Positions 14,236-21,016 of a DNA stretch of 34,733 nucleotides are shown here, one piece after another. The position numbers and the translations under genes are program-made. Every line of letters begins with the position of its first letter. Positions within the stretch are counted from its first letter, which is position 1. The notes under the pieces were generated by a model. The model was given only the letters and a program-made list of their open reading frames with translations. It did not search any database and was not told the origin of the DNA. Source of the stretch: Pseudomonadota bacterium (GTDB taxonomy: Bacteria > Pseudomonadota > Gammaproteobacteria > Burkholderiales > Thiobacillaceae); NCBI GenBank assembly GCA_030690985.1, contig JAUYFG010000103.1, positions 1-34,733 of the forward strand, in the 5' to 3' direction.

Positions 14236-14289
14236 TCAACGGATAACAAATATGGGTACAGCAGGGGGAGGAGAGAGATCAGTGCCCGC

Positions 14290-14470
14290 GCGGGGGCAGC
14301 GGAGTCGTTGCCGTCTTCAGCGGCTTACAAATCCGGCGTCCCCCTTGCGGGGGCAGCGGAGTCGTTGCCGTCTTCAGCGGCTTACAAATCCGGCGTCCCC
14401 CTTGCGGGGGCTGCGGAGTCGTTGCCGTCTTTAGCGGCTTACAAATCCGGCGTCCCCCTTGCGGGGGCAG
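14290..14470. repeat. 57-bp tandem repeat (three copies plus a partial fourth)
   Basis: The unit starting GCGGGGGCAG recurs at 14290, 14347, 14404 and 14461, exactly 57 bp apart. Copies 1 and 2 are nearly identical and copy 3 differs at about two bases. Each unit contains a CCCCC-TTGC-GGGGG hairpin. Since 57 is divisible by three, the plus strand stays open (14209-14496) with a 19-residue repeat, but I see no evidence that it is translated. The minus strand reads towards leuA, so the repeat may lie in or before its promoter. Confidence 0.93.
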
Positions 14471-14696
14471 CAGCAGCCGAGTGGCATGCCGCATGAGGAA
14501 GCAGAACGGAACGGGATGAAATGAATCGCGCATGCGTCCGAATGTAAACGACTAGATGGCTTCCGACAAGGCACCGACAGACGCCGGGGCAATCACAGTA
14601 CAGCGCGTGGGTGCAGGGTGAAGCACTCGCCCCATCTTCGGTGTCTACAACTCTCGCCGCTCCACAGACAAATAGAATCGCGCAATTCCCACATCC
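14471..14696. other. Gene-free stretch before the YggT-like gene
   Basis: No ORF or RNA is recognisable. TAGAAT at 14673-14678 could be the -10 box of the following gene, but no good -35 is present at 17 bp. It would give a very short leader. Confidence 0.3.
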
Positions 14697-15009: not shown

Positions 15010-15198
15010 CCTAGAAACCTCAGTTGAACGCTCCGTGACCACCGGGACGCCACATGGATACAGGCGCGGGAGCGCCCGCTGCGGTTCACCCTTCGGGTGA
15101 CTCCGCGAGGTCGTCGTAGGAGCGGGCTTGCCCGCGATAGCCGCCGTGGTATCGCGGGCAAGCCCGCTCCTACGACGAGGTCAACTGCGGAATCTAGG
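15010..15198. repeat. 189-bp composite element, second copy
   Basis: The ends CCTAGAAACCTCAGTTGA (15010-15027) and TCAACTGCGGAATCTAGG (15181-15198) pair with three mismatches. The interior again has a GGTTCACCC/GGGTGA hairpin and then the REP stem GTAGGAGCGGGCTTGCCCGC from 15116 to 15174. Length and part order are identical to 4150-4338. It starts immediately after the YggT-like gene and ends 34 bp before the HD-GYP-like gene, so it occupies the whole promoter region. Confidence 0.88.
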
Positions 15199-17078: not shown

Positions 17079-17151
17079 GTAGGTTGGGCAAAGCGTAGCG
17101 TGCCCAACAAACCGCCACGACGTTGGGCACGCTGCACTTTGCCCAACCTAC
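17079..17151. repeat. 73-bp palindromic repeat beside the udg stop codon
   Basis: GTAGGTTGGGCAAAGCGTAG and onward (17079-17108) pairs with 17122-17151 with about three mismatches. It starts 2 bp after the glycosylase stop codon in transcription order and may act as the 3' hairpin of the tsaB-rimI-udg message. A degenerate half copy lies near 7813-7829. Confidence 0.85.
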
Positions 17152-17153
17152 GA

Positions 17154-18521
17154 CTACGCCTTCAATAGCTTCATCGTGTTCATCGCCAACACCAGGTCTT
17201 CCCAGGCCTTGGCTTTGTCCGCCGGGCTGCGCAACAGATAGGCGGGGTGATAAGTCACCACCAGGGGCACGCCGCGATATTGGTGCACACGCCCACGCAG
17301 CTTGCCGATGGGGGTGTCGGTCGCCAGCAGGTTTTGCGCGGCGATGCGGCCGACGGCGACGATGATTTTCGGCTGGATCAGGTCGATCTGCCGCTCCAGG
17401 TAGGGCAGGCAGGCCGCCACTTCTTCCGGGCGCGGGTCGCGGTTGCCGGGTGGGTGCGATTTCAGCACATTGGCGATGTAGACGTTCTCGCCGCGCTTCA
17501 GCCTCAAGGCACCGAGCATGGCGTCGAGCACCTTGCCGGCCTGGCCGGCGAAAGGCTCGCCCTGGCGGTCTTCATCCGCCCCCGGCGCCTCGCCGATGAA
17601 CAGCCATTCGGCATGGAGGTCGCCGACGCCGGGTACGCCCTGGGTGCGGGTCTGGTGCAGATCGCACAGGGTGCAGGTTTTGATGGCGGCGGTAAGGGCG
17701 GGCCAGTCCATGCTTTGAAAAGACGCAGGCGAGGACGCCTGCGCTACAAGGACGGCATCTGGCGGCTCGCCCGATGTCGCAGGCGAGGACGCCTGCGCTA
17801 CAGGAACGGCATCTGGCGGCTCGCCCAATGTAGCGCAGGCGTCCCCGCCTGCGTTTTTCCAGGCGCTGCTGAAACGGAAGCCGTCTTCCTCCGCGCACAA
17901 CCTCGCCTTCACCGGGTTTCTCCGGATGTAAGCCGCGAGCGCCCGCATCTCATCGTCGTCGCGAATCACCCGGTCGAAGCTCTCCCGCTGCCAGGTCGCG
18001 CCGCCGCGATTCAGTTGCTGGTTGATCCGATGGGCGGTCCACGACTTGATGCTGTGCAGGATGTCGCTCAAGGCATGCTCACCCAACGGCGTCAGAAGCA
18101 AATGCACATGGTTGGGCATGACCACGAATTCGTGCAGGGTGTAGCGGTCTTCATGGTGATGCAGGGCCTGAATCACCCACTCGGCCAGTTCGGGGCGGAC
18201 AAGCAGGCATTCACCGGCGCCCCGGTCAAGGTAACGCTCGGCTTCCCGCGCCCGTTCGATCTCCGGCAGATCGCGCCAACTGTCCAGCACGTCCTGGGGC
18301 AGGCTGTCGGCCAGGCGGAAGGTGACGAAGTAAGTGGCACCCTGGGCTTTGACGTGGGGAAGATAGCCTCGGGAATGGATGCCCTGAGTCAGGTGGGCGC
18401 GATCCTTCGGCGGTGGAATGGCGGACGCAGGCGAGGACGCCTGCGCTACATTGGCTGCCTCCTTCAGCCGCCAGCGCGGCAACAGGCCCATTTCCTTGAA
18501 GCAGTCTTCGCGCGAGAGCAT
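17154..18521 (-). CDS. Family 4 uracil-DNA glycosylase with an in-frame RAYT transposase inserted
   Basis: One ORF of 455 codons. Residues 1-23 (MLSREDCFKEMGLLPRWRLK and three more) are the short N-terminal piece usual in this glycosylase. Residues 25-34 are a translated REP. Residues about 46-222 are a complete REP-associated tyrosine transposase domain: RGYLPHVKAQGATYFVTFRL, MPNHVHLLL with H138-x-H140, and candidate nucleophile Y198 in LAAYIRRNPVKARL. Residues about 230-268 are a repeat-coded linker (GEPPDAV and VAQASSPA, twice). Residues 271-455 are the glycosylase: C283-x-x-C286, GEAPGADED (310-318) and HPAYLLR (425-431). The ATG overlaps the rimI stop (TGATG). The transposase has no Met of its own near its start. 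The Fe-S cysteine expected in KCRPPGN is replaced (KSHPPGN, S355). Both halves may be functional or split after translation. Confidence 0.9.
   Translation of the reverse strand: MLSREDCFKEMGLLPRWRLKEAANVAQASSPASAIPPPKDRAHLTQGIHSRGYLPHVKAQGATYFVTFRLADSLPQDVLDSWRDLPEIERAREAERYLDRGAGECLLVRPELAEWVIQALHHHEDRYTLHEFVVMPNHVHLLLTPLGEHALSDILHSIKSWTAHRINQQLNRGGATWQRESFDRVIRDDDEMRALAAYIRRNPVKARLCAEEDGFRFSSAWKNAGGDACATLGEPPDAVPVAQASSPATSGEPPDAVLVAQASSPASFQSMDWPALTAAIKTCTLCDLHQTRTQGVPGVGDLHAEWLFIGEAPGADEDRQGEPFAGQAGKVLDAMLGALRLKRGENVYIANVLKSHPPGNRDPRPEEVAACLPYLERQIDLIQPKIIVAVGRIAAQNLLATDTPIGKLRGRVHQYRGVPLVVTYHPAYLLRSPADKAKAWEDLVLAMNTMKLLKA
17724..18450 (-). mobile_element. REP-flanked RAYT insertion inside the glycosylase gene
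   Basis: The transposase-coding part (about 17856-18386) lies between REP copies. CGCAGGCGAGGACGCCTGCG followed by CTACA is at 18426-18450, 17778-17802 and 17724-17748, and an inverted copy is at 17829-17853. The last two direct copies are part of a 54-bp duplication that also contains GGCATCTGGCGGCTCGCCC. RAYTs are known to sit among REPs. What is unusual is that this one is inside a gene with the frame preserved. The exact insertion ends cannot be fixed without an uninterrupted homologue. Confidence 0.85.
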
Positions 18522-18985
18522 CACAGGATCATCCGCATGACCAGCGCGTCTTCGCGCCCCTGGTCGGCCGGGTAGTAGTTGCGGCGCAGGGCGATGCCGT
18601 CGAAGCCGAGGCGTTCGTACAGGTTCACGGCGCGGGTGTTGGAGGGGCGCACTTCCAGGTAAAGCGTTTCGGTGCCGTGGTGGCGGGCGGTGTCGATGAG
18701 GTTCTCCACCAGCGCGCGGCCAAAGCCCCGGCACTGCCAGGCGGGGGCGATGCAGCAGTTGAGGATGTGCCCTTCGCCTACCGCCATCGTCAGTATCCAG
18801 TAGCCGGCCAGCGCGCCTTCGACTTCTCCCACCCAGCTGGAATAGCCGGAATCCAGGCAATCGCGAAAATTGACCAGGGTCCAGGGGTAGGGATAGGACG
18901 CGCGCTCGATTTTGATCAGCGCATCCAGATCCTCCGGCCGCATCGGCCTGAACGCCATTTCCAGCGGTTTCAACAAGGCATTCAT
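18521..18985 (-). CDS. rimI: Ribosomal protein bS18 alanine N-acetyltransferase
   Basis: A GNAT acetyltransferase of 154 residues that acetylates the N-terminus of S18 using acetyl-CoA. The motif FRPMRPEDLDALIKIE opens the fold. The acetyl-CoA loop is seen in IAPAWQCRGFGRALVENLI, and the C-terminal LYERLGFDGIALRRNYYP is typical of RimI. The start overlaps the tsaB stop by 3-4 bp, and the stop overlaps the glycosylase start by 1 bp, so translation of tsaB-rimI-udg is probably coupled. Confidence 0.95.
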   Translation of the reverse strand: MNALLKPLEMAFRPMRPEDLDALIKIERASYPYPWTLVNFRDCLDSGYSSWVGEVEGALAGYWILTMAVGEGHILNCCIAPAWQCRGFGRALVENLIDTARHHGTETLYLEVRPSNTRAVNLYERLGFDGIALRRNYYPADQGREDALVMRMIL

Positions 18986-19656
18986 CGCTCACTCACCTTG
19001 AGCGCCACCTTGTTGCGCACATAGAGCGGTTCCGCCGTTTCCGGCGCGCCGAACTCGCCGGCAGCAAAGCGCGGCGCGGCCAATCTGACGATGGCGCGAG
19101 CATGCGGGATGGCGTCGCTGACGATATTCGCCAGACGGCCCGCCATGCGCTCACGCAGGGCCGGATAGGCGGCAAAGCCGGGGCCGGCGCCGATGCAGCT
19201 GGCGCTTTCCGGTAGCGGTGCGGCTTGCGGCGGGCAAACGACTGGCCCGACCAGGGCGCGCCAGCCCAGTCCTTCGCGTTGATAGAGCGCGGCGTAAACC
19301 TCGTTCATGCGCGCATCGAGGCAGGCCAGCACTTCATCGGCGCCCTCTCCGGCTTCTTCCGCCAGCGCTTCCAGGGTGGAGACCCCCAGCACCGGCAGGT
19401 CGGCGCCCAGCGCCAGCCCCTGCGCGACGCCGCAGGCAATGCGCAGGCCGGTGAAGGAGCCCGGCCCGCAGCCGAATGCCAGCCCGTCGAGCTGGCGATA
19501 ACTCAGGCCGGCGTCGCGCAGGAGTTCGCCCAGCATGGGGGTGAGTAGTTCGGAATGCTTCTGGCCGGCGTGCACGGCGCGAAAACTCACCGCGCCGTCG
19601 ATGAACAAGGCGGCCGAGCACCATTCACTGGCGGTATCGAAGGCGAGGAGTTTCAT
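18982..19656 (-). CDS. tsaB: tRNA threonylcarbamoyladenosine biosynthesis protein TsaB
   Basis: The non-catalytic partner of TsaD in making t6A37 of ANN-decoding tRNAs. The 224 residues begin MKLLAFDTASEWCSAALF, the family start. They contain the ASKHA-type GLAFGCGPGSFTGLRIACG segment and LGVSTLEALA. The ATG at 19656 has no Shine-Dalgarno because a REP palindrome ends 4 bp before it. The frame is open upstream through that REP but without family sequence. It is the first gene of the tsaB-rimI-udg unit and possibly cotranscribed with the DUF1015 gene 97 bp upstream. Confidence 0.95.
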   Translation of the reverse strand: MKLLAFDTASEWCSAALFIDGAVSFRAVHAGQKHSELLTPMLGELLRDAGLSYRQLDGLAFGCGPGSFTGLRIACGVAQGLALGADLPVLGVSTLEALAEEAGEGADEVLACLDARMNEVYAALYQREGLGWRALVGPVVCPPQAAPLPESASCIGAGPGFAAYPALRERMAGRLANIVSDAIPHARAIVRLAAPRFAAGEFGAPETAEPLYVRNKVALKVSER

Positions 19657-19660
19657 GTTT

Positions 19661-19733
19661 GTAGCGCGGGCGTACCCGCCTGCTCGTGGGTCTGATCGCG
19701 TTTGCACGAACGCAGGCGGGACGCCTGCGCTAC
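19661..19733. repeat. REP palindrome abutting the tsaB start
   Basis: GTAGCGCGGGCGTACCCGCC (from 19661) pairs imperfectly with GGCGGGACGCCTGCGCTAC (to 19733). It is the same family as the copies flanking the RAYT (GTAGCGCAGGCG). It takes the place of the tsaB ribosome site. Confidence 0.85.
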
Positions 19734-19753
19734 AAGCGGCGGCTTGGCGTGGT

Positions 19754-21016
19754 TCACAGCAGATGCGAAGCCAGCCCGTCGGCCAGCTTGGGCTCGAACC
19801 AGGTGGATTTGGGCGGCATGACCTCGTTGGCGTCGGCCACGGCCATCAGGTCTTCCATGCTGGTGGCGTGCAGCGAGAAGGCCAGGGCCATTTCGCCGGA
19901 GTCGACGCGTTTTTCCAGGCCACCCAGACCACGGATGCCGCCGACGAAGTCGATGCGCTTGTCGCGGCGCGGGTCGCTGATGCCGAGGATGGGAGCGATC
20001 AGGTTGTTTTGCAGCAGGCTGACATCGAGGCGCCCGACCGGGTCGGCGGGAATCAGGTCGGCGCGGATGGTGAGTTTCATCCAGCGGCCGTTGAGATACA
20101 GGCCGAACTCGCCGGGCGCGGCGGGCTTCACCGCCTCGCCCCACATTTCGATCATGAAGTTTTCTGCGACCTTCTCCATGAACGCCGCTTCGGACAGGCC
20201 GTTCATATCCTTGATCACCCGGTTGTAATCGAAGATGCGCATCTGGTGATGCGGGAAGATCACCGAGAGGAAATAGTTGTAGGGCTCCTCTCCCGTATGC
20301 GCGCTGTTTGCGGCCTTGCGCGTCGCGCAGATGCGGCTGGCGGAGGCGGAACGATGGTGGCCGTCGGCGATGTAGAGCGCCGGCAGGGCGTCGAACAGTT
20401 CGGTCAGACGCGCGATGGCGCCGGCATCGCGGATCACCCAGAGGGTGTGGCGCACGCCACCGCCATTGACCCCTTCACCGACGCCATCGGAATCCGGCGC
20501 GTTCTGGGTGGCGGCGGCGAGGATGGCATCCACTTCCGGCGCATGCGGATAGGCCAGCAGCACCGGGCCGGTCTGGGCGTCGAGCGCGTCGATCTGGCGC
20601 ACCCGGTCGTCTTCCTTGTCGGGGCGGGTGAACTCGTGTTTGCGGATGCGGTTGGTGTCGTAATCGGCCACGCCGGCGGCGGCGACCAGGCCCACCTGGA
20701 CGTGCTTGCCCATGATCAGGCGATAAGCGTAGTAACAGGCTTGCGCATCCTGTTGCAGCACCCCGGCGGCGACCATCTTCTTCAGGTTTTCCGCTGCCTT
20801 GGCGTACACCTCCGGCGCGTAGGGGTCGGTGCCGGGCGGCAGGTCGATTTCCGGCTTGGATATGTGCAGGAAGCTCCATGGCCGGCCTTCGGCAAGCACT
20901 CGCGCTTCTTCGGTGTTGAGCACGTCATAGGGCGGCGCCATCACTTCCGGGGCGCGGCCGGGGGCGGGCCGGAGGGCGGCGAAAGGACGAACTAGCGAGG
21001 CACGAACAAGCGTCAT
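19754..21016 (-). CDS. DUF1015 family protein
   Basis: A 420-residue protein matching DUF1015 throughout. It opens VRPFAALRPAPGRAPEVMAP with PYDV, followed by HISKPEIDLPPGTDPYAPEV and the central YIADGHHRSASASRIC. Members are related to the ParB/Srx fold and some relatives are serine kinases, but the function in proteobacteria is unsettled. The ATG at 21016 has AGGA 9 bp upstream and starts MTLVRASLVRPF. Two earlier Met codons (21046 and 21088) lack ribosome sites. It is divergent from the YihY gene. Confidence 0.9.
   Translation of the reverse strand: MTLVRASLVRPFAALRPAPGRAPEVMAPPYDVLNTEEARVLAEGRPWSFLHISKPEIDLPPGTDPYAPEVYAKAAENLKKMVAAGVLQQDAQACYYAYRLIMGKHVQVGLVAAAGVADYDTNRIRKHEFTRPDKEDDRVRQIDALDAQTGPVLLAYPHAPEVDAILAAATQNAPDSDGVGEGVNGGGVRHTLWVIRDAGAIARLTELFDALPALYIADGHHRSASASRICATRKAANSAHTGEEPYNYFLSVIFPHHQMRIFDYNRVIKDMNGLSEAAFMEKVAENFMIEMWGEAVKPAAPGEFGLYLNGRWMKLTIRADLIPADPVGRLDVSLLQNNLIAPILGISDPRRDKRIDFVGGIRGLGGLEKRVDSGEMALAFSLHATSMEDLMAVADANEVMPPKSTWFEPKLADGLASHLL

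Follow-up and report, generated by a model that had tools for sequence, protein, structure and literature searches.

RAYTs (TnpA-REP proteins) and REPtrons, here taken as RAYT genes bounded by inverted GTAG-type REPs, are described as IS200/IS605-like Y1 HUH transposases (PMC8266576, PMC2817692), and the GTAG tetranucleotide matters for the action of TnpA-REP on REP hairpins (PMC8266576). Intragenic REPs and Rickettsia palindromic elements are another related system, in which palindromic repeats located in coding genes, many of them for DNA synthesis and repair, add repeat-encoded peptides to the products (PMC3733652). The locus analyzed here lies in a window of 34,733 nucleotides (the whole stretch of DNA that was analyzed) and contains a RAYT within the open reading frame of a family-4 uracil-DNA glycosylase (UDG). 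This RAYT resembles those of known REPtrons in its HUH motif and Tyr, in a REP_Tyr_transpos match above cut-off, in its flanking inverted GTAG REPs, and in the presence of REPs elsewhere in the genome. Unlike REPtrons, which are separate genes in the accessible portion of PMC8266576, it is located inside a host frame without an ATG, GTG, or TTG of its own close by, and therefore is not in the autonomous state usual for RAYTs. A further difference, from intragenic REPs and Rickettsia palindromic elements, is that the repeats here enclose an entire transposase that continues the host frame.

The usual view of RAYTs is that they are domesticated genes standing on their own, and intragenic REPs are commonly regarded as odd peptides. 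Inteins with homing endonucleases are in-frame, DNA-cutting guests that occupy fixed sites in DNA-metabolism genes, are patchily distributed, and are exchanged. The embedded RAYT is likewise a patchy, exchanged, in-frame guest at a fixed site of DNA-metabolism genes and presumably cuts DNA; in the Pfam scan of the window protein, which gave only UDG and Y1_Tnp, no intein domain was present, and nothing suggests protein splicing. The host enzyme resembles family-4 UDGs (TIGR00758; 4zby, 1ui0) in its catalytic domain, its GEAPG and HPAYLLR motifs, and its fold, but differs from them in having the RAYT between its N-terminal piece and its catalytic domain. The reading favored here, which we hold to be probable, is that a REPtron resides in frame in the linker of a family-4 UDG as a mobile guest domain that is subject to exchange and loss; the arrangement is seen in several lineages of environmental bacteria.

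Architecture of the Fused Gene

The fused gene begins at an ATG that overlaps the stop codon of the upstream neighbor (TGATG). This neighbor and the next gene are presumed to be rimI-like and tsaB-like, respectively (Table 1). The original prediction of a single 455-codon frame that encodes a UDG N-terminus, a RAYT, REP-derived linkers, and a UDG catalytic domain is borne out by Pfam and NCBIfam. In the window protein, Pfam locates Y1_Tnp at residues 124–201 (E 4.1e-9; 37 bits against a cut-off of 23) and UDG at residues 297–443 (E 5.2e-37), and NCBIfam gives REP_Tyr_transpos (NF047646) at 83.8 bits (cut-off 80) and UDG_fam4 (TIGR00758) at 209.6 bits (cut-off 125.3). The fusion architecture of the window gene is real and confirmed, and it is not a product of chance, because other genomes contain the same architecture in a single open frame and purifying selection acts on both parts (see below).

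In unfused family-4 UDGs of related bacteria, an N-terminus such as MSLSRQDRLQVLGLWPAWRLR is followed by a variable linker and then by the catalytic domain, and the RAYT is located, as had been proposed, at this variable linker. Most of the linker sequence of the window protein is translated REP: a single copy precedes the RAYT, and an inverted copy and two direct copies follow it. The flanking GTAG REPs are thus inverted around the RAYT, and all four REPs are translated in frame in the host gene, consistent with the proposal of a linker made from REP copies.

The view that the transposase has no private start nearby holds for ATG, GTG, and TTG: none of these codons occurs in frame in the stretch of the window gene from the UDG N-motif to the RAYT core, and only two CTG codons are present there. 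The most likely product is accordingly a UDG(N)–RAYT–UDG(catalytic) polypeptide with the RAYT in its middle. No match to a sigma-70-type promoter was found at window positions 17600–19800. The UDG domain of the window gene has an ATG at residue 271, which could in principle re-initiate translation, and a TTG in the linker. The start-codon scan of fused genes gave results for 13 rows, in which L006, L007, and L008 have no such start codon at the UDG-domain position, and some relatives (e.g., L098, L010, and L011) have an in-frame ATG, GTG, or TTG ahead of the RAYT.

Table 1. Features of the fused gene and its upstream neighbors (window coordinates).
Feature	Position	Strand	Remark
RAYT-embedded family-4 uracil-DNA glycosylase gene	17154..18521	-	455 codons plus stop, one open frame
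UDG N-terminal piece, residues 1–24, MLSREDCFKEMGLLPRWRLKEAAN	18450..18521	-	resembles N-terminus of unfused UDGs
REP copy upstream of RAYT, GTAGCGCAGGCGTCCTCGCCTGCG, translated VAQASSPA	18426..18449	-	
RAYT domain, residues 43–220	17862..18395	-	Pfam, NCBIfam, and profile matches
HUH motif H138-V139-H140	18102..18110	-	invariant in 12 aligned fusions
Candidate catalytic Tyr198 (YIRRNP)	17928..17930	-	invariant in 12 aligned fusions
Inverted REP copy downstream of RAYT, in frame within NAGGDACAT	17830..17853	+	
Linker REP copy (VAQASSPA)	17778..17801	-	
Linker REP copy (VAQASSPA)	17724..17747	-	
UDG catalytic domain, residues 271–455	17157..17711	-	Pfam, NCBIfam, AlphaFold, Foldseek
Upstream neighbor, presumably rimI-like	18521..18985	-	overlaps fused-gene start
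Presumed tsaB-like gene	18982..19656	-	neighbor control for dS

Predicted Structure and Catalytic Residues

The AlphaFold model of the window protein has two folded parts, RAYT residues 61–220 (ten-residue pLDDT means of 70–91) and the UDG from residue 271 (84–98), and the linkers at residues 12–58 and 221–264 have pLDDT values below 50. Given the overall pLDDT of 75.1 and pTM of 0.47, the relative placement of the RAYT and UDG parts in this model is meaningless. A Foldseek search with the model returned family-4 UDGs first (top match 4zby, E 2.7e-19) and the complex of a RAYT with a REP hairpin (4er8) at rank 39 (E 1.2e-6). A separate observation concerns rank 38 (9qhs), which is part of a 1122-residue phage family-A DNA polymerase and may point to a UDG-like domain in that protein.

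The HUH and Tyr motifs are kept in all 18 of 18 embedded RAYTs, and the GEAPG-type and HPAYLLR motifs in 16 of 16 UDG domains (the split G403 included). Family-4 UDGs have four Cys ligands for a 4Fe–4S cluster. The third ligand is Ser in the window protein (KSHPPGN) and in the members of its family f1 that were compared, fused or unfused (KSRPPGN), and it is Cys in MM3, NC, and genus g95. Fusion as the cause of the Cys-to-Ser change is ruled out, since unfused family members share the Ser.

Distribution of the Fusion

When genome contigs were scanned with the window protein, nine further in-frame fusions (L006–L014) were found. L014 starts at a contig edge, and L011 is from the isolate Methylobacillus sp. 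MM3, in which the fused gene has 489 codons from ATG and is located on a 180-kb contig. In the genus of the window (g1), the fusion is present in 10 of 23 genomes (G000, G005, G006, G008, G009, G011, G016, G017, G019, and G022), and a UDG match without an embedded RAYT was found in 12, both counts being among the matches listed; the remaining genome, G012 (58% complete, weak match), was set aside as unjudgeable. The linker sequence of G006 is common to two contigs, and the UDG part of G009 is out of sight because the contig ends just after the RAYT. The same fusion therefore occurs in other genomes, as the original prediction had suggested looking for.

In the order sample (399 genomes), spanning matches were limited to the window genus and to genus g95 (in another family, f50), among the matches listed. 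Of the eight g95 genomes, four have the fusion (that of G346 starts at a contig edge), one (G457) has a copy truncated by the end of its contig, G285 is unfused, and G375 has no UDG match among those listed. In the eighth, at G403:C14 (L133), RAYT and UDG are in different frames, which is either a natural fission or an assembly error. In the class sample (369 genomes, mostly with four candidates scored per genome), the window gave the only spanning match among the matches listed, and fusions elsewhere in the class were accordingly set aside. In one family of this class, UDG matches at G719:C116 and G817:C12 lie in 787-codon frames with a stop noted inside the match; these frames are spurious or possibly represent another fusion. 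Two further lineages carry the RAYT-UDG fusion, namely MM3 and the groundwater genome of L012. Viral and plasmid carriers were considered and rejected, as viral contigs contained only one weak relative and eight plasmid records showed just 27–33% identity. Neither an embedded RAYT nor a RAYT-UDG fusion is described in the literature searched, which consisted mainly of freely readable papers (including the accessible portions of PMC6006769, PMC3733652, and PMC8266576).

Exchange of the REP–RAYT–REP Block

In the UDG tree (84 of 131 rows, without the class-search loci and some of the distant unfused rows), fused rows are found in five places among unfused relatives. These are a genus clade of eight rows from eight species (support 100/97); G011, whose placement is unsupported; MM3, beside unfused Methylobacillus (98/82); a clade shared with unfused L041, L065, and L082 (100/99); and g95, in which unfused G285 is nested among fused rows. 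Six changes of state are needed, at least five of which are forced by supported branches, and each is either a gain or a loss. In the RAYT tree (26 of 63 rows), UDG-embedded RAYTs cluster apart from seven ordinary RAYTs, and a long-branched copy embedded in HsdR is located among them, its position being uncertain.

Comparison of dS between the RAYT, the UDG, and the neighboring genes indicates distinct histories. For G019 and G006, dS is 0.27 in tsaB, 0.31 in rimI, and 0.23 in the UDG, compared with 1.61 in the RAYT, and for the window and G006 the corresponding values are 0.28, 0.25, 0.36, and 1.29 (dS above 1 being near saturation). The values for the window and G019 are alike throughout (0.35, 0.30, 0.27, and 0.30), and the opposite relation is seen between the window and G017 (RAYT 0.23; UDG and neighbors 0.39–0.53) and between G008 and G009 (RAYT 0.17; neighbors 0.24–0.33). 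Over genus pairs, median dS is 1.18 for the RAYT, a value near saturation, and 0.62 for the UDG. G019 and G006 share 93.2% nucleotide identity in their UDG domains and 71.0% in their RAYTs; identity falls from about codon 9 and recovers where the catalytic domain begins, and the two differ in the class of their linker REPs. Because this RAYT divergence is unlike that of its surroundings, the block was either replaced or filled separately in the two lineages. The RAYT of G011, although from the same genus, is 49% identical to that of the window, compared with 60% for Methylobacillus. Taken at the level of sequence comparison, these data indicate that the REP–RAYT–REP block has been exchanged between relatives and that the host UDG has been inherited vertically.

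The empty site that the original prediction had proposed to seek in related glycosylases was found in L041 and L082, which share with L012 a REP-bearing left linker and the right linker but have no RAYT. In L012, some 10 nt separate the start of the RAYT from a preceding REP copy that L041 and L082 also have.

When dN/dS was calculated separately for the two parts (Nei–Gojobori method), as had also been suggested, the RAYT had a median of 0.152 (36 pairs) and the UDG one of 0.123 (28 pairs) in the core genus clade, from which G011 is excluded; in g95 the medians were 0.112 (15 pairs) and 0.092 (10 pairs), respectively. Both parts are thus under purifying selection, and the RAYT appears from these codon comparisons to keep its HUH and Tyr residues under such selection.

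REPs in Genomes with and without the Fusion

A CAGG-type REP pattern was derived from the window linker and scanned in 22 of the 23 genus genomes (G012 being left out), with the reversed pattern as a control. Among the matches listed, CAGG-type REPs are present in 10 of 10 genomes with an embedded RAYT and in 0 of 12 others, and the control gave matches in 0 of 22. The counts in the embedded genomes, on both strands and with linker copies included, are 70 (window, G000; including its four linker REPs), 64, 20, 17, 16, 8, 5, 3, 2, and 2 among the matches listed, the last four being those of G022, G006, G005, and G011. A split of 10/10 against 0/12 has a chance probability of 1.5e-6 if the genomes are independent, which they are not, as eight belong to a single UDG clade and the neighboring genes of G009 place it near G008. 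A CCGG-type pattern, which is the linker class of G006, G022, and G005, was likewise found in 10 of 10 embedded genomes (4 to 113 matches), with one match in 1 of 12 non-embedded genomes (G010) and one control match (G008), among the matches listed. G011 has a CAGG-type linker, yet its genome contains 2 CAGG-type and 113 CCGG-type matches among those listed. The window genome has eight RAYT-like matches including its own, among the matches listed, and at the four other RAYT loci examined neither CAGG- nor CCGG-type REPs are nearby.

Outside the genus, where a joint REP pattern was used (control matches, one each in G872 and G1226 among those listed), the association with the fusion is weaker than inside it. 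All counts that follow are among the matches listed. MM3 has 23 matches compared with 0 in unfused Methylobacillus, and in its part of the UDG tree four more genomes have 0 and G873 has 1. For the genome of L012 the count is 13, and three unfused relatives have between 2 and 4. Among g95 genomes, those that are fused, cut, or split have 31, 28, 21, 7, 6, and 5; unfused G285, with 10, exceeds fused G317 (7), cut G457 (6), and fused G346 (5), and G375, in which no UDG was found, has 30. Novimethylophilus kurashikiensis (G1224, L026) has 39, one of them in its unfused UDG linker, and no RAYT was found in this genome with profile A2. The REPs of G285 and G1224 are presumably footprints of a lost embedded RAYT. 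A general enrichment of GTAG hairpins in unfused UDG linkers was rejected, as the strict form occurs in 1 of 115, compared with 0.97 in shuffles (maximum 5).

Related RAYTs in Other Host Genes

In a search of the 399 order genomes with a RAYT-domain profile, the best 11 matches listed are all UDG-embedded, cut, or split (at least 284 bits). Next among the matches listed, at 115 bits, is L208 (G395:C14), a RAYT in frame inside an EcoEI-type HsdR, at about codons 443–623 of the open reading frame and flanked by the REP-like peptides VEAASRRLP and RRDAASTA; because the NP after its Tyr is altered, this copy may be decaying. In 398 phylum genomes, the match that follows the window among those listed, at 222 bits, is L258 (G875:C36), a RAYT from another class that is in frame inside a DUF1156 DNA methylase and is accompanied by the repeated REP-like peptides GARASRPHSQDD. 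Aligned plasmid homologues indicate an empty site for both hosts. A Gemmobacter plasmid HsdR aligns to residues 4–419 and 635–884 of L208, with 12 nt in place of 215 residues between the two segments, and a Meiothermus plasmid DUF1156 gene aligns to residues 31–474 and 724–1164 of L258, with 12 nt in place of 249 residues.

The three host families (UDG, HsdR, and DUF1156 methylase) all act on DNA, which is suggestive, although only three families are involved, and which echoes the reported frequent occurrence of intragenic REPs in DNA synthesis and repair genes (PMC3733652). Members of the subfamily also occur in short frames of their own, in G995 (192 and 200 aa; 208 and 184 bits) and, more weakly, elsewhere, among the matches listed. 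Embedding of ordinary RAYTs was considered and rejected: eight loci with long open frames (G344, G175, G425, G1218, G775, G874, G920, and G328), judged by eye without a family scan, look like separate genes with their own Met and a spurious upstream frame.

Origin and Maintenance of the Embedded RAYT

The anatomy, the linker position, and the REP-derived peptides of the original prediction are upheld, whereas a very recent insertion is refuted, since the fusion is shared by eight species of one UDG clade (plus G009) and by distant lineages and the median dN/dS of the RAYT is 0.15. A new bifunctional protein, its other suggestion, is possible but not needed. In such an enzyme, selected for synergy, the tethered REP nuclease would couple uracil removal to single-stranded REP or lagging-strand DNA. 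This explanation, which we consider unlikely, would account for the intact frame, the purifying selection on both parts, the presence of one RAYT lineage in the same UDG linker at five places of the UDG tree, and the action of all three host families found on DNA, and it is in keeping with the reported frequency of intragenic REPs in DNA synthesis and repair genes (PMC3733652). However, 12 of 23 genus genomes and other unfused family members have a UDG without a RAYT, among the matches listed, close relatives (L041, L082, and G285) manage without one, the RAYT block has been exchanged independently of the UDG, and the HsdR and DUF1156 hosts have no obvious partnership with uracil repair. A bifunctional advantage of the fusion is possible, and a mobile in-frame guest fits better than a UDG-specific bifunctional enzyme because of the patchy distribution, the block exchange, and the HsdR and DUF1156 hosts.

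Many losses on the UDG tree would be required by a single ancient fusion that was inherited vertically, with the dS contrast caused by faster evolution of the RAYT. The clustering of embedded RAYTs, their common position in the UDG, and the higher median RAYT dS (1.18, near saturation, compared with 0.62) agree with this history, but RAYT dS is not uniformly high (0.23 for the window and G017 and 0.17 for G008 and G009, yet a near-saturated 1.61 for G019 and G006) and the G011 RAYT is more distant from that of the window than is the Methylobacillus RAYT (49 and 60% identity), which makes it distinctly improbable; one ancient gain followed by many losses plus recombination is possible. A chimeric assembly or read-through of a pseudogene in a metagenome-assembled genome (MAG) is very hard to reconcile with the isolate MM3, with the agreement of separate MAGs, and with dN/dS values well below 1, and we regard it as highly improbable even though the window genome is broken into 314 contigs with 5.28% contamination, many members are MAGs, and contig ends fall in the RAYT or linker, or close to them, in G006, G009, and G457.

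In the favored reading of a REPtron as a resident mobile guest, the element would settle in frame in the disordered UDG linker, and disordered, length-tolerant linkers would let both enzymes fold. The fused protein is presumably translated, active, and REP-cleaving, and its RAYT probably processes cognate single-stranded REP hairpins in the genome by analogy with known TnpA-REP proteins. The REP–RAYT–REP block would be gained, exchanged, and lost at or near REPs while the host UDG is inherited vertically, insertion and loss presumably being mediated by the RAYT or by REPs. If the block were lost through recombination between the direct REPs that flank it, a REP scar and an intact UDG would remain. 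The guest is proposed to persist because an out-of-frame deletion would cost the host its UDG. From sequence data, the parts of this scheme that can be recognized are the architecture and its conservation, the block exchange, the association with REPs in the genus, and two other hosts with empty sites.

A RAYT lineage that resides inside DNA-metabolism frames and passes from one species to another suggests a way for palindromic elements to be taken up by genes without destroying them, and also for fusions of nucleases with repair enzymes to arise. It also makes REP spread testable, as each linker pairs a candidate cognate REP with its transposase, and the cassettes of close relatives differ although their host enzymes are almost the same. 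As a tentative but plausible extension, the embedded RAYTs may constitute a distinct subfamily of in-frame 'homing' guests that moves as a REP–RAYT–REP cassette into linkers of repair, restriction, and modification enzymes and leaves them unbroken, uses the host gene for expression and for protection from deletion, multiplies REPs genome-wide, and may gain access to DNA from the host. If true, such a guest would be the transposase counterpart of inteins and would supply the agent so far missing from accounts of in-frame palindromic elements in DNA repair genes.

Other Repeats in the Window

Several further repeats were observed in the window. A 30-nt inverted repeat (93%) is located just downstream of the fused gene (17079–17151) and differs in length in G019 and G006, and an inverted pair of linker-class REP-like units is located upstream of the presumed tsaB-like gene (19659–19741). 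A 73-nt repeat occurs in three direct copies, 95–100% alike and with 57-nt spacing, at 14285–14471, and a perfect 29-nt inverted repeat with a 10-nt loop is present at 15111–15178.
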